In this document: positions 18,192 through 61,191 of the stretch, piece after piece
Layout of the letters: each line of letters starts with the position of its first letter
Position numbering within the stretch: position 1 is the stretch's first letter
Program-made: the position numbers and the translations under genes
From: Bacteroidota bacterium
GTDB taxonomy: Bacteria > Bacteroidota > Bacteroidia > Bacteroidales > F082
Assembly: GCA_018816765.1 (NCBI GenBank)
Contig: JAHIUX010000087.1
Coordinates: forward strand, 1 to 64,000
DNA: 64,000 bases
Direction: 5' to 3'
The notes under the pieces: model-generated
Database searches by the model: none
What the model was told of the DNA's origin: nothing
What the model saw: the letters and a program-made list of their open reading frames with translations, nothing else

Positions 18192-18248
18192 TTTAAGCGT
18201 TTTTTCTTTTGTCTGGATTTAAACCGTACTAATTTTGGGGGAGCTTAC
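18192..18248. repeat. 57-bp direct repeat, copy A (IS66-like end)
   Basis: It matches 20374-20430 in the same orientation at 53 of 57 positions. The right edge, read on the minus strand, begins GTAAGCTCCCCCAAAATTAG. A GTAAGC terminus is characteristic of IS66-family inverted repeats. The match stops at that edge, and the sequence beyond differs between copies. This copy interrupts a transposase remnant. IS-end identity is inferred. Confidence 0.7.
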
Positions 18249-20309: not shown

Positions 20310-20430
20310 CTATTCCGGTCCAATCGGCGCCACCCATTCCGGATCGTTCGGCACCAGTATGCCGGAATATTCATTTAAACGTTTGTTCTTTTGCCTGGTT
20401 TTAAACCGTACTAATTTTGGGGGAGCTTAC
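20310..20430 (-). pseudogene. short open-frame remnant beginning in repeat copy B
   Basis: On the minus strand a frame runs from just inside the repeat edge (PPKLVRFKTRQKNKRLNEYS...) for 38 codons to a stop at 20312-20310, with no start codon. Three of the four differences between repeat copies fall at third codon positions of this frame, which suggests the repeat once was protein-coding. I do not recognise the protein; remnant of an IS gene is a guess. Confidence 0.35.
20374..20430. repeat. 57-bp direct repeat, copy B (IS66-like end)
   Basis: This is the second copy of the repeat at 18192-18248, with four mismatches. The two copies bracket the transposase remnant and hipBA. No flanking 8-bp target duplication could be paired by eye. 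Confidence 0.7.
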
Positions 20431-45794: not shown

Positions 45795-47021
45795 ATGAAA
45801 GCAATGTTTACCATGTTTACCCTTGCTTTTCTTTGCCTGGCGGGTGCAGCGCCGGCCCAGGAATGGTCGCAGTTGACGACCAATTATGACAGTTCGCTGT
45901 ACAACCTTTATTTTGTAAATGCCGATGTGGGTTATGCCAGTGGTGATCATGGGAAGGTGTTGAAAACCATCAATGGAGGTAACAGTTGGGTGACGCTGAA
46001 CACCGGAATAAACCAGGGCCTGGCCTCAATACACTTTGTGGATCCGATGATTGGTTATGCTGCCAGTGGCTTTTACAACGACTATTGCAGCATGGTAAAA
46101 ACAATTGATGGAGGCAATAGCTGGACCACAGTGAACACAGCTGCAGGAAAGACAGCAGGTGGCATGTGGTTTCTTGATGCAGAGCGGGGCTTTTATGCCT
46201 GGGCCGACGACCTTTTTGGCAGCAGCGTGATTGGACGGACCCTTGACGGCGGTGCCAGCTGGGATACGGTTTATTCAGGCAACGACTGGATCAGCTACTT
46301 TTATTTTGTTGATGAGAATACCGGTTTTGCGTCAGTGACAAATGGCGGCGTGCTGAAAACCACTGATGGCGGTGCAAGCTGGTCTTTGAACGCTGTGCCC
46401 GGATCGTCGTGGAACTCAGGAATTTATTTTGTTGATGAGAACATTGGTTTTGTAGGCGGTGGTCCGCCAAACCCGGCTTACACCATGTACAAAACCACCG
46501 ATGGCGGTCTTGGGTGGACACAGATTGAATCGGTACCCACCATGATCTTTAAGATTGACTTTGCTGATGCAAACATCGGCTACGCCCTGACAGTAGGCAC
46601 TTCAGGTGCAGGCTCCCTGATTAAAACCGTTGATCAGGGAGAAACATGGCTTGCTGAAGAAACACCGGTTGATGATATTCGTGGAGTCTCATTTCTGAAC
46701 CCCAACCTGGGCTTTGCTGTTGGTGAAAATGGCGTTATTCTCCGCTTCAACGACACCCAGAGTACTGGTAGCATTGAACAGGATCAGCTAAGTGTAAGTC
46801 CTGTTCCTGCAAGCGATTGGATTACGATAAGCCTGAAAAGGAATTCCAATCCCATTAATTTACTTAAGATGTACAACACTACAGGTGCCCTGGTAAAATC
46901 AATGAGAATGGAAAATCAAGCGTTCAATCTGAGTGTAGGTGACCTCCCAGATGGGGTATATATCCTCGAAATAATGAGTGAAAATGGCTGGTCGAACAGG
47001 AAAATTGTGATCAGGCATTAA
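45795..47021 (+). CDS. T9SS-exported Ycf48/BNR-type beta-propeller protein
   Basis: After a signal peptide (LAFLCLAGAAPAQ) the 408-residue protein has about seven blades. Each contains an F-V-D/N-x-x-x-G-F/Y-A strand followed by KTxDGGxSW (for example KTINGGNSW, KTIDGGNSW, KTTDGGASW), the pattern of Ycf48-like and sortilin/BNR repeats. The C-terminus (LSVSPVPASDWITIS ... LPDGVYILEIMSENGW) is a T9SS type A sorting domain. It is probably a surface binding protein with no visible catalytic site. Confidence 0.85.
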   Translation: MKAMFTMFTLAFLCLAGAAPAQEWSQLTTNYDSSLYNLYFVNADVGYASGDHGKVLKTINGGNSWVTLNTGINQGLASIHFVDPMIGYAASGFYNDYCSMVKTIDGGNSWTTVNTAAGKTAGGMWFLDAERGFYAWADDLFGSSVIGRTLDGGASWDTVYSGNDWISYFYFVDENTGFASVTNGGVLKTTDGGASWSLNAVPGSSWNSGIYFVDENIGFVGGGPPNPAYTMYKTTDGGLGWTQIESVPTMIFKIDFADANIGYALTVGTSGAGSLIKTVDQGETWLAEETPVDDIRGVSFLNPNLGFAVGENGVILRFNDTQSTGSIEQDQLSVSPVPASDWITISLKRNSNPINLLKMYNTTGALVKSMRMENQAFNLSVGDLPDGVYILEIMSENGWSNRKIVIRH

Positions 47022-48685: not shown

Positions 48686-48717
48686 TTTGGTTAAGCATAT
48701 AATATTGTGTACTTTTA
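48686..48717 (+). promoter_or_regulatory. promoter of the signalling operon
   Basis: TTTG at 48686-48689 and TACTTTTA at 48710-48717 are spaced 20 bases apart, close to the Bacteroidota consensus apart from the final base. The ATG at 48742 follows after about 24 bases. Nothing else is recognised in the 230-base gap. Confidence 0.55.
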
Positions 48718-48741: not shown

Positions 48742-50160
48742 ATGAAAACAAAACTCATCAATTTAATCGATTTTGATACGGTCAACATCTTGCTCGAAGG
48801 CTTCAACAAATCAACAGGATTTGTGACGGCCATCCTGGACTTGCAAGGGAATGTGTTGTCAAAATCGGGCTGGCGGCAGGTTTGCACCGATTTTCACAGG
48901 GTGCACCCTGAAACTTCAAAGCGTTGCACCATCAGTGATACAGTATTGGCAGGCAAGATGGAGGAAGGGGAAAAGTTTCATTATTATAAGTGTTTGAACG
49001 GATTGGTGGATGTGGCTGTGCCCATCGTCATCAAAGGTATTCATATTGCCAACCTGTTTACAGGTCAGTTTTTCTTCGAAGAACCAGACCGTGCCTATTT
49101 CGCAGAACAGGCCAGGAAATTCGGATTTGACGAAGCATCTTACTTCGAATCACTTGAAAAAGTGCCGGTTATCCCGAAAGAAAAAGTGAGGGATGTGATG
49201 GAGTTTTTGTTGAATATGACCCTGATGATCAGCGAAATGACCCTGCAGAAATTAGAGTTATTGGAGTTGAATAAATCATTGCAAAGCAATAGAGAATATA
49301 ACAGGGCACTGTTTACCGAATCACCCATCGGACTGGCATTAACAACCCTTGAAGGTCTACTGGTTGATGCAAATCCTGCGTACTGCAATACAATTGGCCG
49401 GACTCTCGACGAAACGCTGAAGCTTACATACTGGCAAATTACCCCGGAATCGTATCAAACACAGGAACAACTGCAACTGAAAAGCCTTGAAGAAAAAGGG
49501 CTTTACGGGCCCTACGAAAAAGAATACATTCACCGCAACGGACATCTGGTTCCGGTAAGATTACAGGGGAAAATTATTGAACGAAACAACCAGAAATACA
49601 TCTGGTCGAGTGTTGAAGATATTTCGGAACGTAAGCATGCCGAAAAAGCTCTGCAACAAGCCAAGGAGTATGCCGAAAACCTGATCGAAACTGCCAATGT
49701 GATGATTGTTGGACTGGACGCAACGGGCAAAATCAATGTTTTCAACGAAACTGCCGAACGGATTACTGGTTATTCCCGCGCCGATCTGCTTGGGAAAAAC
49801 TGGTTCGAAATATTAACTCCGCGAAACAAATACCCGGAGGTTTGGGCGGAGTTCGAACGACTTTTGAGCGGTGGCTTCCCCCGGACTTTTGAAAACCCAA
49901 TCCTTACCAAATCAGGAGAAGAATGTTTGATTAGCTGGCAAAACAACGAATTGTGGGAGGATGGACAGATTTGTGGCACCATTTCGTTCGGCATTGATAT
50001 TACCGACCAGAAACGGGCTGAAGTAAAACTTCAGGAGCAGCTCGATGAACTGACCCGCTGGCAAAAAGTTACACTTGGCCGCGAAGAACGCGTGCAAAAA
50101 CTAAAGGACGAGGTAAACGAACTTCTTGCTTTACTGAATAAAACTGCACGGTATAAGTAA
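48742..50160 (+). CDS. PocR-domain/PAS-PAS sensor without output domain
   Basis: Residues about 5-165 form a PocR ligand-binding domain (NILLEGFNKSTGFVTAILDL, QVCTDFHRVHPETSKRC, YYKCLNGLVDVAVPIV) with conserved Cys and His residues. Two PAS domains follow (about 185-305 and 306-425). The 45-residue C-terminal coiled coil (ELTRWQKVTLGREERVQKLK) closely resembles the tail of the next protein. There is no kinase, cyclase or DNA-binding domain. It lies 11 bases before the giant hybrid kinase and probably delivers a ligand signal to it through the shared tails, which is an inference. Confidence 0.85.
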   Translation: MKTKLINLIDFDTVNILLEGFNKSTGFVTAILDLQGNVLSKSGWRQVCTDFHRVHPETSKRCTISDTVLAGKMEEGEKFHYYKCLNGLVDVAVPIVIKGIHIANLFTGQFFFEEPDRAYFAEQARKFGFDEASYFESLEKVPVIPKEKVRDVMEFLLNMTLMISEMTLQKLELLELNKSLQSNREYNRALFTESPIGLALTTLEGLLVDANPAYCNTIGRTLDETLKLTYWQITPESYQTQEQLQLKSLEEKGLYGPYEKEYIHRNGHLVPVRLQGKIIERNNQKYIWSSVEDISERKHAEKALQQAKEYAENLIETANVMIVGLDATGKINVFNETAERITGYSRADLLGKNWFEILTPRNKYPEVWAEFERLLSGGFPRTFENPILTKSGEECLISWQNNELWEDGQICGTISFGIDITDQKRAEVKLQEQLDELTRWQKVTLGREERVQKLKDEVNELLALLNKTARYK

Positions 50161-50171
50161 AAGTGTGAAAC

Positions 50172-53100
50172 ATGAGCAAATTGAATGAATCTAATGATTT
50201 AAGAGGCGACACTGGTTTTTTTGCAGGAGGTGGTGAAATGAGTCAAGTCATTCTCAAGAAAGACTGGTCGAAAACCCCGCTTGGCCCCATCGAAACATGG
50301 TCGCTGGGCTTGCGTACCGCTGTCAGCCTGGTTTTAAATTCTAATTTCCCCATATCAATGGCCTGGGGGGAGCATCATACCCAGATTTACAATGACGGTT
50401 ACTGGCCAATCTGCGGCGATAAACACCCGACGGCAATGGGCCAGGATTTTACTGAATGCTGGGCGTCGGCTTTCCCGGTTATTGGCGACGCATTCTGGAG
50501 CGCGTATGGAGGTAAAACAGCCTATCTCGAAGACCAGCGTATGTTTCTCGACCGCTTGGGTTACCTCGAAGAAACCTGTTTCACCTTTTCATTCAGCCCG
50601 ATCCGTGATGAGAATGGGGCTGTTGCAGGCCTTTTTCATCCGGTAAACGAAACTACTTCAAAAATGCTGAGCCAGAGGCGGAGCAAAACACTTCGCGATC
50701 TGACCGCAATCGGCCTTGTAGCCAAGTCGTTTCAGGAAGCTATTGACCAAACGGTACAAATCCTGGCTGATGCTATGTTTGATGTACCTTTCGCACTATT
50801 TTATCAAATCGGTACTGACGCGCGAAATGCACGGCTTGTTGGCAAGGTGGGATTGGATTCAGGATTTGCTGCCTGTCCCTCTGAAATTGATATTTCGCAG
50901 GGTAAATCCTTGTGGCCGCTGGCACAGGTTCAGGAAAGCGGATCCGCAATACTTATTGACGATTTAGCAGTCCGTATCCAAAATATGGTATGTGAACCTT
51001 ATCCTGAACCGGTAAAACAAGCCCGGCTCCTGCCACTTACCATACACGGACACAGCGATATTTCGGTGATCATGATTCTGGGAATAAGCCCGCGTTTGCC
51101 GGAAAATGAAGACTACCGGTCGTTTCATGAATTGCTGGCTTCCACCATCGGGAATGTGGTTTCCAGCGCTTTGTCCATCGAAGCGGAGAAGCGCCGGATT
51201 GAGGCGCTGGCCGAGCTCGACCGGGCAAAAACCATTTTCTTTTCGAACATCAGCCACGAATTCCGTACTCCGCTTACATTGATGCTAGGGCCACTTGAAG
51301 ACGAACTGGCCGACAGCCATGAACCTTTGTCTGAATCGCGACGCGAACGTTTGGCAACTGCCCATCGCAACTCATTGCGTCTGCTGAAACTGGTCAATAC
51401 CTTGCTCGATTACTCACTCATCGAAGCCGGAAGAATTAATGCACACTATCAACCCACAGATTTGGGGCTGTTCACTACGGAACTGGCCAGCATGTTCCAG
51501 CCAGCTACAGAAAAAGCGGGAATTGAATTTTTGGTTGATTGCCCTGCCCTGCCCGAAATGGTTTATATCGACCGCGAAATGTGGGAGAAAATCGTCCTTA
51601 ATTTACTGTCAAACGCTTTCAAACATACTTTTACAGGCCAAATCCGGATTTCGCTCAACTGGAAAACAGATCAGGTCGAACTTACAGTTCAGGATTCAGG
51701 AGTTGGTATACCGAAAGAAGAGCTATCCCATTTGTTCGAGCGTTTTCACCGGGTAAAAGGATCGCGGTCGCGCACAGTTGAGGGAACCGGGATTGGGCTG
51801 GCGCTGGTTAAAGAACTGGCTCAGCTTCATGGTGGCAGCGTTGAGGTGGAAAGTGAACCCGGAATGGGCAGCACCTTCAGGATTACGGCGAAAACAGGCC
51901 GTGCACATTTGCCTGAAGGCCAAACTACTGAAGAATCAGCTGCTGTTTCATATACAAAATTACCGAAGACTTTTGCTGACGAAGCAACAAGGCTGATCAC
52001 AAAAACCGGTTCTGCTATTGAATTAAGTAGGCCGGTAACATTAAGTGCGCAAAATCGGGCACGCATAGTGTGGGCCGACGACAATGCCGATATGCGCGAC
52101 TATGTGAGCCACCTGCTTGGTGAAGTTTATGAAGTTATTGCTGTTTCGGATGGTGCAGAAGCGCTGGCTTTGACCAGGGAAACATTACCCGACCTAGTAT
52201 TGACTGATGTGATGATGCCTGTGATGGACGGTTTTGAATTGTTGCGCGAACTTCGTGCGACGGAATCAACCAGGCAAATTCCGGTCATCTTTTTGTCGGC
52301 AAGGGCTGGTGAGGAAGCGGCGGTTGGAGGACTCGAATCGGGGGCCGACGATTACCTCGTCAAGCCATTCACCGCACGGGAGCTTATGGCACGGGTTGCC
52401 ACCCACATAAATCTGGCCAAACTCAGGCGTAGTTGGACTGCTGAGCAGGAATCTGTCGAAAAATTTAAGATTTCAGAAAGAAATAACCTCGAACAACTGG
52501 AGCTGGCTGAAAAGTCGCGCCGCGCCCTTCTCGGAATCCTTGAAGATCAGCAGCTAACTGAAGAAGCGCTGCGGAAAAGCGAAAATGAATTCCGCACCCT
52601 TGCCGAATCCATGCCGCAAATTGTGTGGGTCACGCGTGCCGATGGCTGGAATATTTATTTTAACCAGCAATGGGTCGACTACACTGGTTTAAGCCTGGAA
52701 GAAAGCTATGGACATGGCTGGAACAAGCCTTTCCATCCCGACGACCAGCAACGCGCCTGGGATGCCTGGCAGAATGCGGTGAACAACAACGGAATTTACT
52801 CAATCGAAGCCCGCCTGCGCCGTGCTGATGGCGAATACCGCTGGTGGCTGGTTCGCGGAATCCCACAAATCAGTGAACAGGGCGAAATCCTGAAATGGTT
52901 TGGTACCTGCACCGATATTGATGACATCAAACAAACCCAAAAAGAGTTAAACGAAAGTGAACAACTCCTGCGTCTTTCGGCGGAACTGGCCAATGTGGCT
53001 GCCTGGGAATTTGATTTTACGACCAACAGCATGTCGCGCTCGAAAAACCACGACAGTCTGTACGGGATCCCGGTTCAGGAAAAATGGGCTTTCGAAACAT

Positions 53101-54659
53101 TCCTGAATGCTACCCATCCAGACGACCGCGAATTAAGCAATTCGACAATTCGAAAATCGGTTGCGGCGGGTGGCCCCGACAAGTACAGGTTCGACTTCAG
53201 GGTAATCTATCCTGATCTGTCGGTTCACTGGCTCAATGTAATTGGCGAGGTAGTCAAACGAAATGACAAAGGCGAAGGGATTTTGGTCCGCGGTTTTATT
53301 ATTGATATTACCGACCGTAAACGTGCTGAGACTGAACTGCAGGAAAGCGAGGCGCGCTACCGGATGCTCTTCAACAGTGCACCTGTTGGCATTGTTGTCT
53401 CTGATCTCGAAGGACGCTATCTCGACGCAAATCTGGCCATGTGCCGGATGCTTGGATACTCCTACGATGAGTTTGTTTCTATGAATGCAAAAGACATTGT
53501 GATCCCTTCAGAGATCCGGCACATCGATCCGGCAATCCGCGCGTCTCAAACCGGAAACAACTTCAATCGGGAGTGGGAACTGCGGCGTAAGGATGGTTCG
53601 CGCTTCACGGCGGAAGTGATCGTCGCCAGCCTTCCCGATGGCAAACCCCTGGGGATGGTCCGCGACATTACCGACCGCAAACAGGCCGAAGAAGAAATTC
53701 GCAAGCTCAACGAACGCATATCAACAGCAACAAAGGCATCGAAAGTGGGTATCTGGGACTGGGACATTGAGAAAAATCAACTGTTTTGGGATGACCAGAT
53801 GTATTTATTGTACGGTATAAAAAAGGAAGAATTTTCAGGTGCATACGAAGCTTGGATAAATGGACTTCACCCCGATGACAAAGTGCATGGTAAAGAACAA
53901 ACCGAATTGGCATTAAGGGGAGAAAAGGAATATGATACTGAATTTCGTATAATTTGGCCCGATGGGACCATTCGGCATTGTAAAGCAAAAGGCGAAGTAT
54001 TCAGAAACTTAAAAGGTGAACCGATTCGGATGGTAGGAGTCAACTTTGATATTACTGAACAAAAAAGAATCGATCAAAAAATTCGCGAAAAAGACCAGGA
54101 ATTCAAAAAACTTTCGTCCAATGTTCCCGATTTGATTTTTCAATTTACCCGGAAACCCGATGGAACATATTGCGTACCTGTTGCATCAGAAGGAATCCGG
54201 AATATTTTTGGTTGTACACCAGAAGAAGTTATTGATGATTTTACACCTATCGGACGCGTAATTTACCCCGAAGATGCTGAACGGGTTATAAAAGATATTG
54301 AATATTCAGCCGAACATTTAACCTATTTTACCTGCGAGTTCAGGGTGCAAATTCCAGGCAGGGATATACAGTGGATTTATTCAAAATCTACCCCTGAAAA
54401 ATTGCCCGATGGCAGTATTACATGGTATGGTTTTAACACCGATATAACACAAAAAAAACTGGCCGAAGAAGAGATCAACCAACAATTGAATGAATTGCAC
54501 CGTTGGTACGAAGCCATGCTCGACCGTGAAGAACGAATACTTGAACTTAAACATGAAGTAAATCAATTGCTTGAAAAAGATGGTTATGCTTCAAAATATG
54601 ATTCTGCGAAGTCTGTTTCAGACAATGCTCAACCGGAGGTAAGTCCTTTTGAACCTTAA
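50172..54659 (+). CDS. giant hybrid histidine kinase with internal kinase/REC and five downstream PAS domains
   Basis: The 1495-residue protein begins with a PAS-like domain (DWSKTPLGPIETW) and a GAF domain (about 170-330). A HisKA with SHEFRTPL (His near 362) and a HATPase (NLLSNAFKHT, DSGVGIP, GTGIGLALVKEL) come next, then a receiver domain (WADDNADMRDYV near 632; phospho-Asp in LTDVMMP near 678). Five PAS/PAC domains then occupy about 800-1430. The C-terminal coiled coil (ELHRWYEAMLDREERILELK) matches that of the preceding protein. Sensory domains after the receiver are unusual. No membrane segment is evident, so it is cytoplasmic. Confidence 0.9.
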   Translation: MSKLNESNDLRGDTGFFAGGGEMSQVILKKDWSKTPLGPIETWSLGLRTAVSLVLNSNFPISMAWGEHHTQIYNDGYWPICGDKHPTAMGQDFTECWASAFPVIGDAFWSAYGGKTAYLEDQRMFLDRLGYLEETCFTFSFSPIRDENGAVAGLFHPVNETTSKMLSQRRSKTLRDLTAIGLVAKSFQEAIDQTVQILADAMFDVPFALFYQIGTDARNARLVGKVGLDSGFAACPSEIDISQGKSLWPLAQVQESGSAILIDDLAVRIQNMVCEPYPEPVKQARLLPLTIHGHSDISVIMILGISPRLPENEDYRSFHELLASTIGNVVSSALSIEAEKRRIEALAELDRAKTIFFSNISHEFRTPLTLMLGPLEDELADSHEPLSESRRERLATAHRNSLRLLKLVNTLLDYSLIEAGRINAHYQPTDLGLFTTELASMFQPATEKAGIEFLVDCPALPEMVYIDREMWEKIVLNLLSNAFKHTFTGQIRISLNWKTDQVELTVQDSGVGIPKEELSHLFERFHRVKGSRSRTVEGTGIGLALVKELAQLHGGSVEVESEPGMGSTFRITAKTGRAHLPEGQTTEESAAVSYTKLPKTFADEATRLITKTGSAIELSRPVTLSAQNRARIVWADDNADMRDYVSHLLGEVYEVIAVSDGAEALALTRETLPDLVLTDVMMPVMDGFELLRELRATESTRQIPVIFLSARAGEEAAVGGLESGADDYLVKPFTARELMARVATHINLAKLRRSWTAEQESVEKFKISERNNLEQLELAEKSRRALLGILEDQQLTEEALRKSENEFRTLAESMPQIVWVTRADGWNIYFNQQWVDYTGLSLEESYGHGWNKPFHPDDQQRAWDAWQNAVNNNGIYSIEARLRRADGEYRWWLVRGIPQISEQGEILKWFGTCTDIDDIKQTQKELNESEQLLRLSAELANVAAWEFDFTTNSMSRSKNHDSLYGIPVQEKWAFETFLNATHPDDRELSNSTIRKSVAAGGPDKYRFDFRVIYPDLSVHWLNVIGEVVKRNDKGEGILVRGFIIDITDRKRAETELQESEARYRMLFNSAPVGIVVSDLEGRYLDANLAMCRMLGYSYDEFVSMNAKDIVIPSEIRHIDPAIRASQTGNNFNREWELRRKDGSRFTAEVIVASLPDGKPLGMVRDITDRKQAEEEIRKLNERISTATKASKVGIWDWDIEKNQLFWDDQMYLLYGIKKEEFSGAYEAWINGLHPDDKVHGKEQTELALRGEKEYDTEFRIIWPDGTIRHCKAKGEVFRNLKGEPIRMVGVNFDITEQKRIDQKIREKDQEFKKLSSNVPDLIFQFTRKPDGTYCVPVASEGIRNIFGCTPEEVIDDFTPIGRVIYPEDAERVIKDIEYSAEHLTYFTCEFRVQIPGRDIQWIYSKSTPEKLPDGSITWYGFNTDITQKKLAEEEINQQLNELHRWYEAMLDREERILELKHEVNQLLEKDGYASKYDSAKSVSDNAQPEVSPFEP

Positions 54660-54674
54660 ATAAACTGGATAAGG

Positions 54675-56885
54675 ATGAAAAATCAAATGTGGAAAACAAC
54701 GGCATTCGTTTGCATTCTTTTGCTGCTTGGATTATCAAATTCATTGGCGCAAAACAGAACTATTAGCGGGAAACTGATTAATGCGATAAATGGAGAAGCG
54801 TTGCCCGGGATAAAGATTGAAATAAAAGGAACAGGTATTTGGGCGAACAGCAATAAGGAGGGTGAATTCAATCTGATTGTACCCGATACGCTGAAAAATC
54901 CAGGATTTGCTGAATTCGATGGAATGGAGATTCTTGAGATCAGGGCTAACGGTACCGATTCATACCAAATTTACCTCTCTCCTGCGAATTTGATGGAATT
55001 ATCGTTTGAAGATTTAATAAAAATAAAGGTCAGTGTTTCAACAACCAAAAGTGAAGATGTTTTCCATACCCCATCGTCGGTAACCGTTATCGGCCGTGAA
55101 ATGCTAAACCAGTATAATTTCATAAGTGTGGCTGAAATGCTGCGAACTGCTGTTGGAATTGATATCTATCAAACAAACAACGACGACAATGTGGCAACAT
55201 CACGGGGTATACTACAAAATTATTATGCCAATAAAATCCTTATAATGATTGAGAATGTTCCAACCTATCAGCCCATCTACGGAAATACCAATCTCGACCG
55301 TTTGGATGTCAATGATATTGAACGTATTGAAGTTCTAAAAGGCCCGGCCTCTGTTCTTTATGGCGGCAATGCCTACCTGGGTGTTGTAAACATTATTCTC
55401 CGAAAAGGAAAAAGTGGTGATGTAAATGTAAGGTTGGGAGCAGGATACAGGCGTTTTGGTGCTTCAGGGGCAAATGCTACTTTGTCAAAAAAAGATTTCA
55501 AGTTATTCATTTCCGGAAATACAAGCTACGAAATTCAGAAGCCGTATGAATTGACCGGCAAACGGCAGGATGTATATTTGGGCGATTCAGTGATCAACTA
55601 CCAGGGTCAGATTAAATCGACCAATTTTAATGTATTAACCTCTCACAAAGCTTTTACCCTTTTGCTCAACAATTATGAATATCAACATACATTTCTAGGT
55701 ATAAACCCTTCATTCATTTCGGGTGCTGGCAAACCAATGACCGATAGGGGAACCTTGTTGGCACTGAAGTATCGCAAGCCTTTGACTGAAAAAATGAACC
55801 TATTGGCCAGTTTGGCCTACGACTACTTTAAACGTGATTACGCGTCAAATGAGGATGAGTCTATTGCATTGATGCTCAAAGGCGAGCGGCTTGTAGGTAC
55901 TGCATTGCTAAATTACGCTGTAAACGAATTGTTCGATATCGAATTTGGGCTCGATGCCGAGCAACGAATGAACGGACAGCATGTATCGATTGACCTTATT
56001 CATGATAAAATACTGAAAGAAAACCTGAAAAATGCCCGAAATATTACTGAAATGTCCAGTTTTGCACAGCTTCATCTAAAAACAAAAAAAGTCAATGTCC
56101 TGGGGGGCATTCGTTTCACCAATAACTCTTTTTCGGGCAATAACTTTTCAGGGCGGATATCGGCAATTGCACCACTTTCAGAATATAACTCTGTAAAACT
56201 TATACTCGGCCAATCGTTCAGGGCGCCGACCATGCTCGAATTGTACTTCGACCATCCAACTGTTATTGGAAACATCAATCTGAAACCCGAAAAAGCAAAT
56301 TCGATTGAACTTGCTTACGTGCATGGCAAAGGAAACCTGTTTGTTCAAGTGCTGGGCTACTACCACAAACTCGACCATTTAATCCATCGCCTCACCCCTC
56401 CTGCCGGACCGCCTTCCGAATATCATAATCTTTCGACATTCGAAGGTTTTGGTTTCGAATTTGAAGCCAAATACCAAAACACCAAATTGTTTAACGCGTT
56501 CTTTAATTATAACTTCATGGAAGGATTGGGGCAAAAAGCGAAAACAAACTATCAGCATGTTCCCGATCATACCTTTAAAGCAGGGGTAAATAAAGCGTTT
56601 GGCCGCTTTTTTGTTTCTGCCAATGGGTACGCGGTATCTTCGGTGCTGGGCAATCCAAAATTGAATCAACCGATAAAAGGGCAATTCATGCTCGATACGC
56701 ACATCGGATTCAAACATGAACTTGAGTCTAAAAAAGTTTTTTTCAGACATACGCTGAGTGCAAAAAACATTACAAATTCACAAATGCTCATTCCTGAATA
56801 TATAAGGCAAACCGACAATATCAACAGTCAGGCAACTACCGGATTTGGGCGCAGATTCATTTATACCCTAACCCTTTCTTTTTAG
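54675..56885 (+). CDS. TonB-dependent outer-membrane receptor
   Basis: A signal peptide (residues 1-25) precedes a carboxypeptidase-regulatory-like domain (RTISGKLINAINGEALPGIK, about 27-105). The plug is next (SVSTTKSEDVFHTPSSVTVIG ... DIERIEVLKGPASVLYGGNAYLGVVNI), then a 22-strand barrel ending in a C-terminal aromatic (YTLTLSF). It imports a ligand across the outer membrane with TonB energy. No SusD partner is nearby. It sits 15 bases after the hybrid kinase and 5 bases before a YfiR-like gene, pointing to signalling-linked uptake or sensing rather than glycan import. Confidence 0.9.
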   Translation: MKNQMWKTTAFVCILLLLGLSNSLAQNRTISGKLINAINGEALPGIKIEIKGTGIWANSNKEGEFNLIVPDTLKNPGFAEFDGMEILEIRANGTDSYQIYLSPANLMELSFEDLIKIKVSVSTTKSEDVFHTPSSVTVIGREMLNQYNFISVAEMLRTAVGIDIYQTNNDDNVATSRGILQNYYANKILIMIENVPTYQPIYGNTNLDRLDVNDIERIEVLKGPASVLYGGNAYLGVVNIILRKGKSGDVNVRLGAGYRRFGASGANATLSKKDFKLFISGNTSYEIQKPYELTGKRQDVYLGDSVINYQGQIKSTNFNVLTSHKAFTLLLNNYEYQHTFLGINPSFISGAGKPMTDRGTLLALKYRKPLTEKMNLLASLAYDYFKRDYASNEDESIALMLKGERLVGTALLNYAVNELFDIEFGLDAEQRMNGQHVSIDLIHDKILKENLKNARNITEMSSFAQLHLKTKKVNVLGGIRFTNNSFSGNNFSGRISAIAPLSEYNSVKLILGQSFRAPTMLELYFDHPTVIGNINLKPEKANSIELAYVHGKGNLFVQVLGYYHKLDHLIHRLTPPAGPPSEYHNLSTFEGFGFEFEAKYQNTKLFNAFFNYNFMEGLGQKAKTNYQHVPDHTFKAGVNKAFGRFFVSANGYAVSSVLGNPKLNQPIKGQFMLDTHIGFKHELESKKVFFRHTLSAKNITNSQMLIPEYIRQTDNINSQATTGFGRRFIYTLTLSF

Positions 56886-56890
56886 AATCC

Positions 56891-57460
56891 ATGAAAACAA
56901 CGAACAAACATACTGGATTCATGAAAATGAAAGGAGAAATGGTAAGGTTGGTTTTCATTCCCTTACTTTTTCTTGCAATTCCATTTCGGACAGAAGCGCA
57001 ATCGGTAGAATATTTTGTTAAAGCATCGCTTATAACCAAAATTGCCCAATATACAGAGTGGGATTCTACTGCAAGTTCCGATGTTTTCGAGATAGCCATT
57101 CTGGGTAAAAGCCCATTTAAGGGCGAGCTTGAAAAGTTGGCATCGAGTACCCAAATAAAAAACAAACCAATAAAAATCAGTTACATCCGGAATTACAATG
57201 AGGCTAAAACTTGTGAGATTATGTTTGTTAGTCAGTCGGAAAGAAACAACCTGGATGAAATTGTCAAGTATTTTGAAGGTAAAAACACCATGTTGATTGC
57301 TGATACACCTGAATTTTCCGAAAAGGGAATTCATTTCAATTTCTATTTGGACCCAGATAAAACCATTCATTTTGAAATTGACTTGAATGCTCTTAAAAGC
57401 TCTGGATTAAAGCCTGATTTGCAATTATTAACGATCGGGAAAATCATTAAAAAACCCTGA
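56891..57460 (+). CDS. YfiR-like (DUF4154) periplasmic protein
   Basis: After a signal peptide (VRLVFIPLLFLAIPFRTEAQ) the 189-residue protein shows the DUF4154 pattern: VEYFVKASLITKIAQYTEW, then FEIAILGKSPFKGEL, EIMFVSQSERNNLDEIVKY, LIADTPEFSEKGIHFNFYL and a final LLTIGKII. In Pseudomonas, YfiR is a periplasmic repressor of the cyclase YfiN. Here the next gene encodes a HAMP histidine kinase, so it may bind the sensor part of that kinase. The start could be any of the Met codons at 56891, 56930 or 56939. Confidence 0.85.
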   Translation: MKTTNKHTGFMKMKGEMVRLVFIPLLFLAIPFRTEAQSVEYFVKASLITKIAQYTEWDSTASSDVFEIAILGKSPFKGELEKLASSTQIKNKPIKISYIRNYNEAKTCEIMFVSQSERNNLDEIVKYFEGKNTMLIADTPEFSEKGIHFNFYLDPDKTIHFEIDLNALKSSGLKPDLQLLTIGKIIKKP

Positions 57461-57462
57461 TT

Positions 57463-59049
57463 ATGAATCCATTAAGAGATATTCGGTTAAGAAATAAAAT
57501 TATTCTGATCGTTGTTGTAATCGGGACAGTGTCAACTTTTACGGGCAACCTGATTAATTATTTATATGAAATTAACAAAACAAAAATAGGGATGATAGCA
57601 GATTCGCAGATGCACGCCCGACTGATCAGTGAATATTGCAGTTTGCCGCTTGAATTTAATTATCCTGAAAATGCGAAGGACGTTCTTTTAAAGCTAGCTG
57701 AAATTAATTCAATTACAGATGGTATTCTTTACAATTCAAGCGGTTTGGTATTTGCTGAATATCACCGAAAACCTGGCGAGAGAATAGAAATGCCAGCCAA
57801 TCTAATAACGGAAATATTTAAGTTAGAAGGAAACTTTTTACATGTCATTGAAAAAGTACAATCAAAAAGGGGGCTTGAAGGGTATATTTATCTTCGTTCT
57901 GAAATTGATTGGAAATCAATTATGCTAAAGCAGGGGCTAATCGCTGTAATACTTACCTTATTGATGGTTCTGATCATATTTGCCCTGTCATTTTATTTTC
58001 AGAAAGGAATATCAGACCCTATTATAAGGCTATCCAATCAAGTGAAACATAATACTATAACAACCAGTAATATGCCTGCAACCGGTTACGTAGGAAAAGA
58101 TGAAATCGGACAGTTGTACCATGATTTCAATTTGATGATTGAGCAAATTCAGACTCGCGAAAATGACAAGAGAAAGGCAATGGAAGCAGAAAAAATTGCA
58201 TTGGTTGAATCAAAACGCTTACTACTTTTGGCAGATAAATCACGAAACGCGCTTTTAAGCGCCATTGAAGATCAGAAAATGTCAAAGGCAGAGATTATTA
58301 AATTGAATGAAACATTGGAAATTCGGGTAAAAGAGCGGACTGCCCAGCTCGAAGCCGTTAATAAGGAGCTAGAAACATTTACCTATTCCGTTTCACACGA
58401 CCTGAAAGCTCCTTTGCGCGGAATTGATGGTTTCAGCAGGCTGTTGCAGGATATTTATGGACCTGCAATGAATGAGGAAGCCCAGTCATTTATCAAAACC
58501 ATCAGGAGTTCGACTACCTTAATGAACCAACTTATCGATGACCTGCTGAACTATTCGCGACTCGAAAGAAGTCCTTTACGCATTGAAGCCATCAGAATCT
58601 CTGAAGTAATCGATACCATAGTCACTTTGAATAAAGCTGAGCTCGATGCGCATCAATTTATTTTCGAAACAGACAGTGGAGAAATCGTGCTGGCTGCTGA
58701 CAGCAGGGCAATTACCATTGCATTGCGCAACGTGATTGAAAACGCCATTAAGTTCACAAAAAACAGGCCTAATCCGCGGGTAAAGGTTGTAGTCACCGAC
58801 AATGAGCAATCGTGGGTTATCAGTGTGGCCGATAATGGCATCGGATTCAATATGAAATACCACCAACGTATCTTTGAAATCTTCCAGCGCCTTGAAAGGG
58901 CAGAGGACTTCCCGGGTACAGGCATAGGGCTGGCCATGGTGAGCAAAGCCATGCAACGAATGAATGGTAAGGTCTGGGCTGAAAGTGCACCAGGCGAAGG
59001 TTCAGTTTTTTATCTCGAAATACCTAAACATCAATATAATGGGAACTGA
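57463..59049 (+). CDS. membrane HAMP histidine kinase
   Basis: The 528-residue protein has TM1 (about 10-30), a 125-residue periplasmic sensor similar in size to those of YfiN-type proteins, TM2 (about 160-182), a HAMP domain and a coiled coil. The HisKA segment is YSVSHDLKAPLRGIDGF (His near 312), followed by a HATPase (IENAIKFTKNRP, DNGIGF, GTGIGLAMVSKA). It lies 2 bases after the YfiR-like gene and overlaps the response regulator by 11 bases. This supports a periplasmic-repressor/kinase/regulator relay. Confidence 0.92.
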   Translation: MNPLRDIRLRNKIILIVVVIGTVSTFTGNLINYLYEINKTKIGMIADSQMHARLISEYCSLPLEFNYPENAKDVLLKLAEINSITDGILYNSSGLVFAEYHRKPGERIEMPANLITEIFKLEGNFLHVIEKVQSKRGLEGYIYLRSEIDWKSIMLKQGLIAVILTLLMVLIIFALSFYFQKGISDPIIRLSNQVKHNTITTSNMPATGYVGKDEIGQLYHDFNLMIEQIQTRENDKRKAMEAEKIALVESKRLLLLADKSRNALLSAIEDQKMSKAEIIKLNETLEIRVKERTAQLEAVNKELETFTYSVSHDLKAPLRGIDGFSRLLQDIYGPAMNEEAQSFIKTIRSSTTLMNQLIDDLLNYSRLERSPLRIEAIRISEVIDTIVTLNKAELDAHQFIFETDSGEIVLAADSRAITIALRNVIENAIKFTKNRPNPRVKVVVTDNEQSWVISVADNGIGFNMKYHQRIFEIFQRLERAEDFPGTGIGLAMVSKAMQRMNGKVWAESAPGEGSVFYLEIPKHQYNGN

Positions 59050-59467
59050 TAATTCAAATCTGCCAATCCTGGTTGTCGAAGATAACCCCATTGACCTGGA
59101 GCTTACACTTCGCGCATTCAACCGCAAAAAGCTGACAAACCCAATTCAGGTGGCCCGCGATGGTGAAGAAGCGCTGAGGTTTGTTGAAAAATGGGAGCAG
59201 GGTGAGCAAACACCTGTCGTGATCCTCCTCGACCTGAGCATGCCTAAGGTGAACGGCCTTGAAGTGTTGGAGAAGATCAAGTCACATCCTGAATTTAAGA
59301 CAATTCCGGTTGTGATTCTGACCACATCTTCTGAGTCGAACGACCTGCAGCGGGCGTATCAGCTGGGTGCAAACTCCTATATCGTCAAGCCGGTTGACTT
59401 TGAAAAGTTCCTTGAGGTTGCTGAAGTTATCGAATTGTACTGGCGCGTGATCAACAAACCTGCATAA
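59039..59467 (+). CDS. single-domain response regulator (Rcp1-like)
   Basis: The ATG at 59039 overlaps the kinase stop and gives MGTDNSNLPILVVEDNPIDLEL; a frame extension upstream from 58964 is antiphase to the kinase and rejected. Acidic residues VEDN, the phospho-acceptor in LLDLSMPKVNG, and SYIVKPVDF form a complete receiver. It has the EDNPID and late YW features of Rcp1-like regulators and no output domain. It probably relays phosphate to another protein. Confidence 0.92.
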   Translation: MGTDNSNLPILVVEDNPIDLELTLRAFNRKKLTNPIQVARDGEEALRFVEKWEQGEQTPVVILLDLSMPKVNGLEVLEKIKSHPEFKTIPVVILTTSSESNDLQRAYQLGANSYIVKPVDFEKFLEVAEVIELYWRVINKPA

Positions 59468-59619: not shown

Positions 59620-61191
59620 ATGCTTTTACGTTCGATAATTCAGTATTCTAGAAAAGGCAACTCCAGAATGATCCTGGAATTCTGTTTGTTGCTGCTGATT
59701 ATTGTGCTGTTCATGTTTGATTTCAGGATCAGCTACAATGAGATGGATGTTGTTCCCTATGCCAGGGCTGTATTTAATGACCAATGGTTGACCCACGACT
59801 GGTATCTGAACCTCACTATGCCGTACCGCTATTTTTTCAGCTATCCCGTTGGGTATTTTGCTGAGACTTTTGGTATCATCGAAACAATTAGTGGCGGAAG
59901 GCTGGTAACTTATTTGTTGATTGCAGTGCCGCTTCTGGGCTTGATTAATTCACTCAGAACCTACTCAGACGGGTTTTTGTATTTTTTTGCGTTAATCCTT
60001 TTTTTTATGTTTTTCCGCAATGGCAGCGGGGCCGGCGAATGGATGGTCGGTGGTCTTGAAACGAAGGTTTTTGCCTACGGCTTTGCCCTGTTGGCCCTGA
60101 CCGCATTTCTGAAGAAACAACTCTGGGCAGGGCAGGCCTTTGCCGGCCTGGCCTTGTCGTTCCACTTATTGGTCGGAATTTACAGCCTCTTCTGCCTGCT
60201 ACCGGTCCTGTATGTGTATCAACGCGAAGCGAAAGACTTTTACGTGAAATTTTTCCGGACACTGCCTTTGTTTCTGAGTACTGCTGCAGTCGGTATTTTT
60301 TCAATTGCCAACGAACTCTTGTTTAGTGAAGGTGGTTCTTCGCAACTGGGTTGGGATTTTTATGTGAACATCAGGGTCCCTCACCACACACTTCCGGCTG
60401 CATTCAATGTGGAAAAGTGGATCAAACTGGGTGTCTTTGCTGGTCTAAACCTCCTGTTCTTCCTGAAATCGAAGAAGCAAACCATCAGGTTGATTGCATC
60501 ATATGCGCTTTTCTCGTTCATTATCAGTCTGGTAGGAATAGGTGTTTTCTTCTTTCATAGTTCAGGCCATTATTTCAAATATTATTTTTTTCGGTTTGGC
60601 GACATCATGCTGCCCTTGATGAGCTTGTTGCTGCTGGTTGCCTTTCTCAGCGAAACACAGGCTTCGTTTATCCGGAAAAGGAAAAAACAACTACAGCTTG
60701 CAGTTATGGTTGTTTCAGTGATCATCCTGATCCCTTTTGCACGCACCTTTATCACTGATTTCAGCACCTCAGCTGGGCAGATCAAGGCAAGGACCTCCGG
60801 CGATGTTGCGCTGGAAACCTGGGTAAAGGCAAATGTTTCGAAGTCGGCTGAAATCATCACCCAACCCGATGATGACTTCTTTTACATCAATTACGAGCGG
60901 CCTTTGTTTGTGAGCTGGAAACATTCACCCCAAAACAATACCGACATTATGGAATGGCACAGGCGTTTAGTCCTGCTGAACCGGGGACAGGAATTCAGCA
61001 AGGTGAACCAGTTTAAGCAGAACTATGTTCAACTGACTGAGACTGAAATTCTGGCCATTGCCAATACCTATCCTTCTGTTGCTTATATCATTATGCCCGA
61101 TACCATTGCCTTGAAATTGCCCGTTGCCTTCAAAACAGATAAATCTGTCCTGTATAAAGTGAACAGGCTGGGTGACCGGTTGATTAAATAA
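59620..61191 (+). CDS. polytopic membrane protein (GT-C-like), function unknown
   Basis: The 523-residue protein has about ten membrane helices. An early YNEMDVVPYARAVFNDQWLTHDWYLN loop with acidic residues, placed after the first helix, is as in GT-C glycosyltransferases and related proteins. A soluble C-terminal part (about 390-523) follows the last helix. It could act on lipid-linked sugars, but this is inferred from topology alone. A Met at 59668 would shorten the start. A Dabb-domain gene follows after 27 bases. Confidence 0.6.
   Translation: MLLRSIIQYSRKGNSRMILEFCLLLLIIVLFMFDFRISYNEMDVVPYARAVFNDQWLTHDWYLNLTMPYRYFFSYPVGYFAETFGIIETISGGRLVTYLLIAVPLLGLINSLRTYSDGFLYFFALILFFMFFRNGSGAGEWMVGGLETKVFAYGFALLALTAFLKKQLWAGQAFAGLALSFHLLVGIYSLFCLLPVLYVYQREAKDFYVKFFRTLPLFLSTAAVGIFSIANELLFSEGGSSQLGWDFYVNIRVPHHTLPAAFNVEKWIKLGVFAGLNLLFFLKSKKQTIRLIASYALFSFIISLVGIGVFFFHSSGHYFKYYFFRFGDIMLPLMSLLLLVAFLSETQASFIRKRKKQLQLAVMVVSVIILIPFARTFITDFSTSAGQIKARTSGDVALETWVKANVSKSAEIITQPDDDFFYINYERPLFVSWKHSPQNNTDIMEWHRRLVLLNRGQEFSKVNQFKQNYVQLTETEILAIANTYPSVAYIIMPDTIALKLPVAFKTDKSVLYKVNRLGDRLIK

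Follow-up and report, generated by a model that had tools for sequence, protein, structure and literature searches.

The six-gene row and its products

The present analysis concerns a row of six genes in a contig of Bacteroidota bacterium (GTDB order Bacteroidales, family F082; GenBank assembly GCA_018816765.1, contig JAHIUX010000087.1). The stretch analysed, positions 1 to 64,000 of the contig, is referred to as the window. The row occupies 48742-59467, and its genes, all on the + strand, were labelled g1 to g6 in order of position. The gaps of 11, 15, 5 and 2 bp and the one overlap given in a preliminary description of this DNA were confirmed. Furthermore, the Pfam domains agreed with its gene labels: PocR sensor, hybrid kinase, TonB receptor, YfiR-like protein, HAMP kinase and receiver. 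The core of the row recurs in other genomes and is probably a trans-envelope pathway. It varies the YfiR-YfiN core, a TonB-dependent receptor (TBDR) standing where YfiB would be and a kinase replacing the cyclase. The features were as follows.

48742-50160, + strand: g1, PocR-PAS-PAS protein without kinase and with a coiled C-terminal tail, 472 aa (Pfam)
50172-54659, + strand: g2, soluble hybrid kinase, HisKA-HATPase-REC, five PAS stretches and a tail, 1495 aa (Pfam)
54675-56885, + strand: g3, TBDR with plug and barrel, 736 aa (Pfam, NCBIfam)
56891-57460, + strand: g4, YfiR-like periplasmic protein, DUF4154 at residues 43-183, 189 aa (Pfam)
57463-59049, + strand: g5, membrane kinase, TM1 (first transmembrane segment), CHASE8/PAS-like periplasmic sensor, TM2, HAMP, HisKA, HATPase, 528 aa (Pfam, NCBIfam)
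57655-57657, + strand: g5 codon F65, equivalent to F70 of E. coli DgcN/YfiN, YfiR-contact patch (alignment)
59039-59467 (alternative open reading frame (ORF) start 58964), + strand: g6, stand-alone receiver (Pfam Response_reg)

The g4 product matched DUF4154 (YfiR/HmsC) with 118 bits against a cut-off of 24.9, and a profile of 24 of its homologues matched solved YfiR chains at E 7e-10. It is a separate protein, not fused to a stalk, and contains one cysteine, whereas YfiR of E. coli K-12 contains four. This single cysteine speaks against redox control by YfiR disulphides of the kind found in P. aeruginosa, and that reading was discarded for the window. The g3 product gave 75 bits for the plug and 94 bits for the barrel in Pfam, and 114.9 bits against the NCBIfam TOL_0244 TBDR model (NF053590; cut-off 645). 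In g6, Pfam found a REC domain only, and the PDB matches included the phytochrome response regulators Rcp1, RcpA and RcpB (E about 4e-22 to 5e-23).

HisKA and HATPase were detected in g5 by Pfam, with HAMP and CHASE8 below the cut-off (CHASE8 24.3 of 27 bits, or 25.5 in a second comparison with the window sequence alone), and its sensor matched the DgcN model at E 7.7e-8. The sensor was aligned with 27 others, and all 28 matched CHASE8, HAMP, HK_near_YfiR_like and DgcN/YfiN at the E-values used. Residue F65 of g5 aligned with F70 of E. coli K-12 DgcN and was Phe in 28/28 sensors, L63 aligned with V68 and was Leu or Ile in 28/28, and the equivalents of A66/A67 varied (the window has L61/P62). 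According to Malone 2012 (PMC3375315), V68A and F70L are YfiR-insensitive forms of P. aeruginosa YfiN. Judging from the matching letters, the P. aeruginosa numbering would fit that of K-12. The AlphaFold model of the g5 sensor consisted of two long helices around a small beta sheet, with a predicted local distance difference test (pLDDT) score of 89, and CitA-type PAS domains were among its fold matches. The g5 sensor is a YfiN homologue which keeps the YfiR-contact Phe, with the V68 equivalent kept as Leu or Ile.

The PocR domain of g1 (residues 8-167) scored 171 bits in Pfam and was accompanied by two PAS domains. For g2, Pfam gave HisKA-HATPase-REC followed by five PAS_3 stretches, and hydropathy gave no transmembrane segment. 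Both proteins end in a common tail, with 47.5% identity over 40 aa, which may be a pairing element between the sensors and the kinase.

The operon itself is real. It is flanked by a gap of 230 bp upstream and one of 152 bp downstream, and the spacing makes a single transcript for the six genes plausible. Read from 58964, g6 has 167 aa and overlaps g5 by 86 bp; read from the second ATG at 59039, it has 142 aa and an overlap of 11 bp. This inner ATG suits the receiver domain better. A sigma-70-type scan gave promoter-like and terminator-like sites in chance numbers only, and the Bacteroidota-type pattern TTTG-TAnnTTTG had 4 exact matches compared with 2.96 expected. A one-mismatch site at 48686, upstream of g1, was dropped as the g1 promoter, since it is one of 33 such matches on the + strand. 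Elsewhere in the window, 18208-18237 and 20390-20419 form a near-identical pair of 30-base promoter-like elements (TTTG...TAATTTTG). Upstream of the row, a secreted repeat protein is encoded at 45795-47021, and its C-terminal region resembles a type IX secretion sorting signal, which fits Bacteroidota. The downstream flanking gene, 59620-61188, had no match in the same-genus genomes G003 or G019.

Recurrence of the TBDR-YfiR-kinase module and stalked fusions

Of 100 genomes from the family to which the window belongs, 11 (the window's own included) contained DUF4154, as did 39 of 395 in a phylum sample. The loci compared were the neighbourhoods from these genomes and 79 named loci from a genome scan, and the neighbourhoods were read with profiles built in this analysis. 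Since the scan was seeded with eight fusions, the named loci lean to fusions and are not to be read as frequencies. Twelve weak YfiR matches (E 1.9e-9 or worse) of 58 other than the window's own were left out. Loci L055 and L092 had no hit by our YfiR profile in the first pass, and five of the 79 named loci without YfiR by this profile (L134, L141, L175, L184 and L185) were uncounted. After removal of 8 duplicates of genome-set loci, the final set besides the window comprised 114 YfiR genes, namely 43 short ("split") and 71 fused. L165 and L168, both counted among the split genes, are probably fusions cut short. One of the 28 split loci with a CHASE8 kinase, L071, showed only a weak sensor match.

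A TBDR gene was scored when it lay directly upstream of YfiR, on the same strand and within 250 bp, and 722 genes of the same loci served as controls. Such a TBDR preceded 20/43 split YfiR genes, 18/28 of those with a CHASE8 kinase and 37/71 fused genes, compared with 14/722 controls. The gap between TBDR and YfiR was 30 bp or less in 40/55 cases, with a median of 8. A short receiver gene in the same run was present in 23/71 fused and 5/28 split loci, and an additional kinase gene in 27/71 and 11/28, respectively. In the TBDR tree, the main clade of 40 rows held 24 fused, 15 split and 1 other, and split and fused rows were intermixed. TBDR, YfiR and kinase genes are thus a recurrent gene module, far above the control. 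As to other arrangements, L064 (G444:C37) contained two YfiR genes and then three TBDR genes, without a kinase. In L063 (tandem YfiR), L065 and L067, the YfiR genes had a similar context and no adjoining TBDR or kinase, which indicates that YfiR has other partners too.

In the 71 distinct fusion genes (L107-L183 and 8 genome-set loci), a long coiled-coil stalk joins YfiR to an inner-membrane output. The outputs comprised 58 with kinase hits, 7 with a GGDEF motif and 6 others; among the scanned fusions, SpoIIE was found in L153, L154, L157 and L174 and GGDEF in L163. According to the record titles, the hosts were members of Bacteroidota, Ignavibacteria, Elusimicrobia, Lentisphaerales, Gammaproteobacteria, Nitrosomonas and Campylobacterota. 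CHASE8 was matched in none of the 71. The linker from YfiR to the single transmembrane helix was low in Gly and Pro. Counted between the conserved Asp in the LLGGTEID motif and the Gln that precedes the membrane, the linker length was an exact multiple of 7 in 68/71 fusions (84, 133, 140, 147, 154, 161, 168, 182, 189, 203, 210 or 217 residues), most frequently 140-154. The three exceptions (144, 151 and 193) were all 4 mod 7, compatible with one 11-residue insertion. The Gln was replaced by E, R or T in three rows, and no gap lay between it and the membrane helix in 70/71. As the sequences are related (19 clusters at 45% identity), these counts are non-independent.

In an alignment-free measure (68 genes; 3 lacked the typed motif), the strongest period among 3-13 was 7 (R 0.62). 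The signal was weak when only its 27 distinct lengths were used (R 0.28, p 0.13), as the hydropathy edge can be placed only to within a few residues. Furthermore, the power of the mean hydrophobicity along the stalk was 104 at period 3.5 compared with 5-10.5 at neighbouring periods. One core register was 92% hydrophobic, and the other was 37% Gln and 33% hydrophobic. In the AlphaFold model of a construct from L109, residues 159-368 formed one helix with a block pLDDT of 90-97 through the rod, and the 15 best fold matches of the head were all YfiR chains. With a helix rise of 1.5 Å per residue, 140-154 residues correspond to 21-23 nm, which is near the usual width of the periplasm. The rod may span the periplasm and touch the TBDR. 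A strict ruler does not fit L117, whose stalk has 84 residues although a TBDR lies upstream, nor the rods with lengths of 182-217 residues. The heptad-quantised stalk beside TonB receptors, with three kinds of output, is the most surprising result of this analysis, and it lies outside the window.

The proposed pathway and its alternatives

We lean slightly towards a reading of g3-g6 as a trans-envelope two-component pathway to which g1 and g2 add a cytoplasmic input. The TBDR would report its ligand to the periplasmic YfiR, with direct contact between the two, and YfiR would dock on the CHASE8 patch around F65, as YfiR does on YfiN, and in this way control the kinase, probably by inhibition. 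Kinase g5 would then pass phosphate to the stand-alone receiver g6. In the cytoplasm, the PocR-PAS-PAS protein g1 may sense a small molecule and act together with the tail-bearing g2 through pairing of the tails, so that g1 and g2 would tune the same response or gate it in an AND-like manner.

The preliminary description had treated all six genes as a single unit, and had held that frequent separation of the two halves in relatives would speak against it. The halves were often separated: PocR lay near YfiR in 2 of the 114 other distinct YfiR genes (L109 and L116), and the six-gene order did not recur in the other loci. The recurrence of TBDR-YfiR-kinase upholds part of that claim, with the PocR link optional, and the unit of six is weakened. 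The same separation is what would be expected if two unrelated sensory systems merely stood side by side, one a cytoplasmic metabolite sensor of PocR protein and hybrid kinase and the other an envelope sensor of TBDR, YfiR, kinase and receiver, an explanation which we consider unlikely. PocR is rare; it was present in 7/46 YfiR genomes and lay next to YfiR only in the window. Moreover, PocR or PAS hits from the family and the class gave 16 further stretches, 14 of them with a PocR gene; all 14 share one chain with a full kinase, and none was near a TBDR or YfiR. However, two unrelated systems fit poorly with gaps of just 11 and 15 bp. In addition, the closest PocR relative found precedes the same module in the distant genome of L109 (Bacteroidetes bacterium GWF2_33_16), where a kinase-less PocR-PAS-PAS gene lies 146 bp before TBDR, YfiR~kinase and receiver genes. 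Its product was 39% identical to g1 over its length and 66% in the PocR domain, and the PocR domain of L109 was matched at E 1e-20 in 4/395 genomes of the class, the window's own included. In L116, PocR abuts YfiR and is divided between two overlapping ORFs, YfiR-PAS-PocR(N) and PocR(C)-PAS-HisKA-HATPase.

The tail also bears on this question. In L109, it is common to the PocR protein and the multi-PAS protein encoded upstream of it (75.6% over 45 aa). In L049, L109, L110 and L112, it was found (GRE.R...LK) on PAS or REC proteins that have no kinase and are encoded next to the module. Distances from tail to YfiR were compared by hand for 32 YfiR loci, chosen from the 79, which came from 31 genomes. 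Ten of 29 tail hits lay no more than about 10 kb from YfiR, these ten belonging to four genomes (G829, G831, G832 and G834), whereas random placement in a 4-Mb genome would give roughly 0.15. The L109 and L116 cases, together with the tail proteins beside the module, make the association of the PocR half recurrent though optional; it would be an optional second input that recurs at times.

Two other explanations concern the role of the TBDR. YfiR might act as a substrate-binding-like receptor, with the TBDR merely importing a ligand and the loaded YfiR signalling to the kinase without touching the receptor. The fold search with the stalked YfiR, in which the periplasmic substrate-binding protein 6k1x (E 2e-3) followed the YfiR chains, is in agreement with this. 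It is nevertheless doubtful, since YfiR has one lobe only and thus no closed cleft as in two-lobed binding proteins, and the stalked relatives put YfiR at a distance from the inner membrane that signalling by a freely diffusing ligand would not require. It is more improbable still that the TBDR is the regulated target instead of the input, with the kinase controlling the expression of a transporter in its own operon. Sensor genes are often located with a transporter under their control, and some YfiR genes sit with several TBDR genes and no kinase, as in L064. However, Pfam found no DNA-binding regulator in the operon, and a TBDR also lay directly upstream of GGDEF fusions (6/7) and of "other" fusions, the SpoIIE ones included (4/6); GGDEF and SpoIIE outputs do not control transcription directly.

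Several results weigh against the trans-envelope pathway with its second input. In 8 of the 28 split loci the gene directly upstream of YfiR was a different one, in 1 the TBDR was separated by over 250 bp, and 1 lay at a contig edge. Likewise, 26/71 fusions had no adjacent TBDR, 18 of them none in the fetched locus. The g3 product fell outside the main clade of module TBDRs, and its nearest row (43% identity) was a receptor of L064, in the kinase-less YfiR-YfiR-TBDR-TBDR-TBDR row. All three window proteins were below the cut-offs of the corresponding NCBIfam models. The PocR link depends on L109 and L116, and the tail is not specific, being found in 32/100 family genomes, mostly away from YfiR. 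The proposed pathway is supported by the recurrence of TBDR-YfiR-kinase, the contact patch, the YfiR-kinase fusions, the recurrence of tail proteins and the L109 operon. For the ligand-gated signalling over both membranes suggested earlier, the module recurrence, the fusions and the YfiN-like sensor are in agreement, and the weak point is the six-gene unit.

In a broader and more tentative proposal, to which we give somewhat less than even weight, YfiR would be the periplasmic head of a widespread class of TBDR-coupled receptors. The rod, rigid and heptad-quantised, would link an inner-membrane kinase, diguanylate cyclase or phosphatase directly and mechanically to the outer-membrane receptor, and the window would represent the split form, in which YfiR is freed from the rod, with CHASE8 docking and a second, cytoplasmic PocR input. 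The way in which a signal gets from a receptor in the outer membrane to an enzyme in the inner membrane is understood in few systems. This question becomes testable with a family in which one periplasmic head, encoded beside a TonB receptor, occurs either as a free regulator or at the tip of a rod whose heptad phase is fixed. Such a YfiR-TBDR family would offer a likely input for many orphan kinases of Bacteroidota and relatives.

Comparison with known systems

Like the window, YfiBNR of P. aeruginosa and E. coli has a DUF4154 periplasmic regulator and a partner with a CHASE8/PAS-like sensor and HAMP. However, its output is GGDEF, whereas the window kinase has HisKA and HATPase; its outer-membrane lipoprotein gene yfiB has no counterpart among the six genes, a TBDR standing in its place; and its YfiR has two cysteine pairs compared with one cysteine in the window. 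The FecA-FecR-FecI type of TonB transducer also has a signalling outer-membrane receptor, as proposed for g3, but by Pfam the window TBDR has no Secretin/TonB N-terminal (STN) match and the operon no sigma or anti-sigma gene. The PocR transcription regulator shares the sensory domain PF10114 with g1; its output is DNA-binding, whereas g1 has PAS domains and the tail instead.

The earlier observation that a YfiR-like protein lies upstream of a histidine kinase, not a diguanylate cyclase, holds, but this kind of pairing has been described before. The relevant section of Malone 2012 (PMC3375315) reports YfiN homologues in which sensor kinases replace GGDEF, paired with YfiR as in the window, and proposes a modular YfiR-YfiN core; a kinase in place of the diguanylate cyclase is therefore not new. 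That section leaves TBDR, stalk fusions and PocR unmentioned, and the word TonB is absent from the main text. Our literature search, with subscription papers outside its scope, found no paper on the TBDR-YfiR-kinase combination or on a stalked YfiR. The NCBIfam models NF053590, NF053591 and NF053592 (TOL_0244 TBDR, TOL_0243 YfiR-like and HK_near_YfiR_like, the last named "sensor histidine kinase, YfiR-like protein-associated") describe the same three protein types, which are encoded together in the window too, with gaps of 5 and 2 bp. Against NF053591 and NF053592, the window YfiR scored 81.9 of 125 bits and the kinase 106.3 of 194 bits. Together with the report of Malone 2012, this NCBIfam triad indicates that the core of the window row is a variant of a known system.

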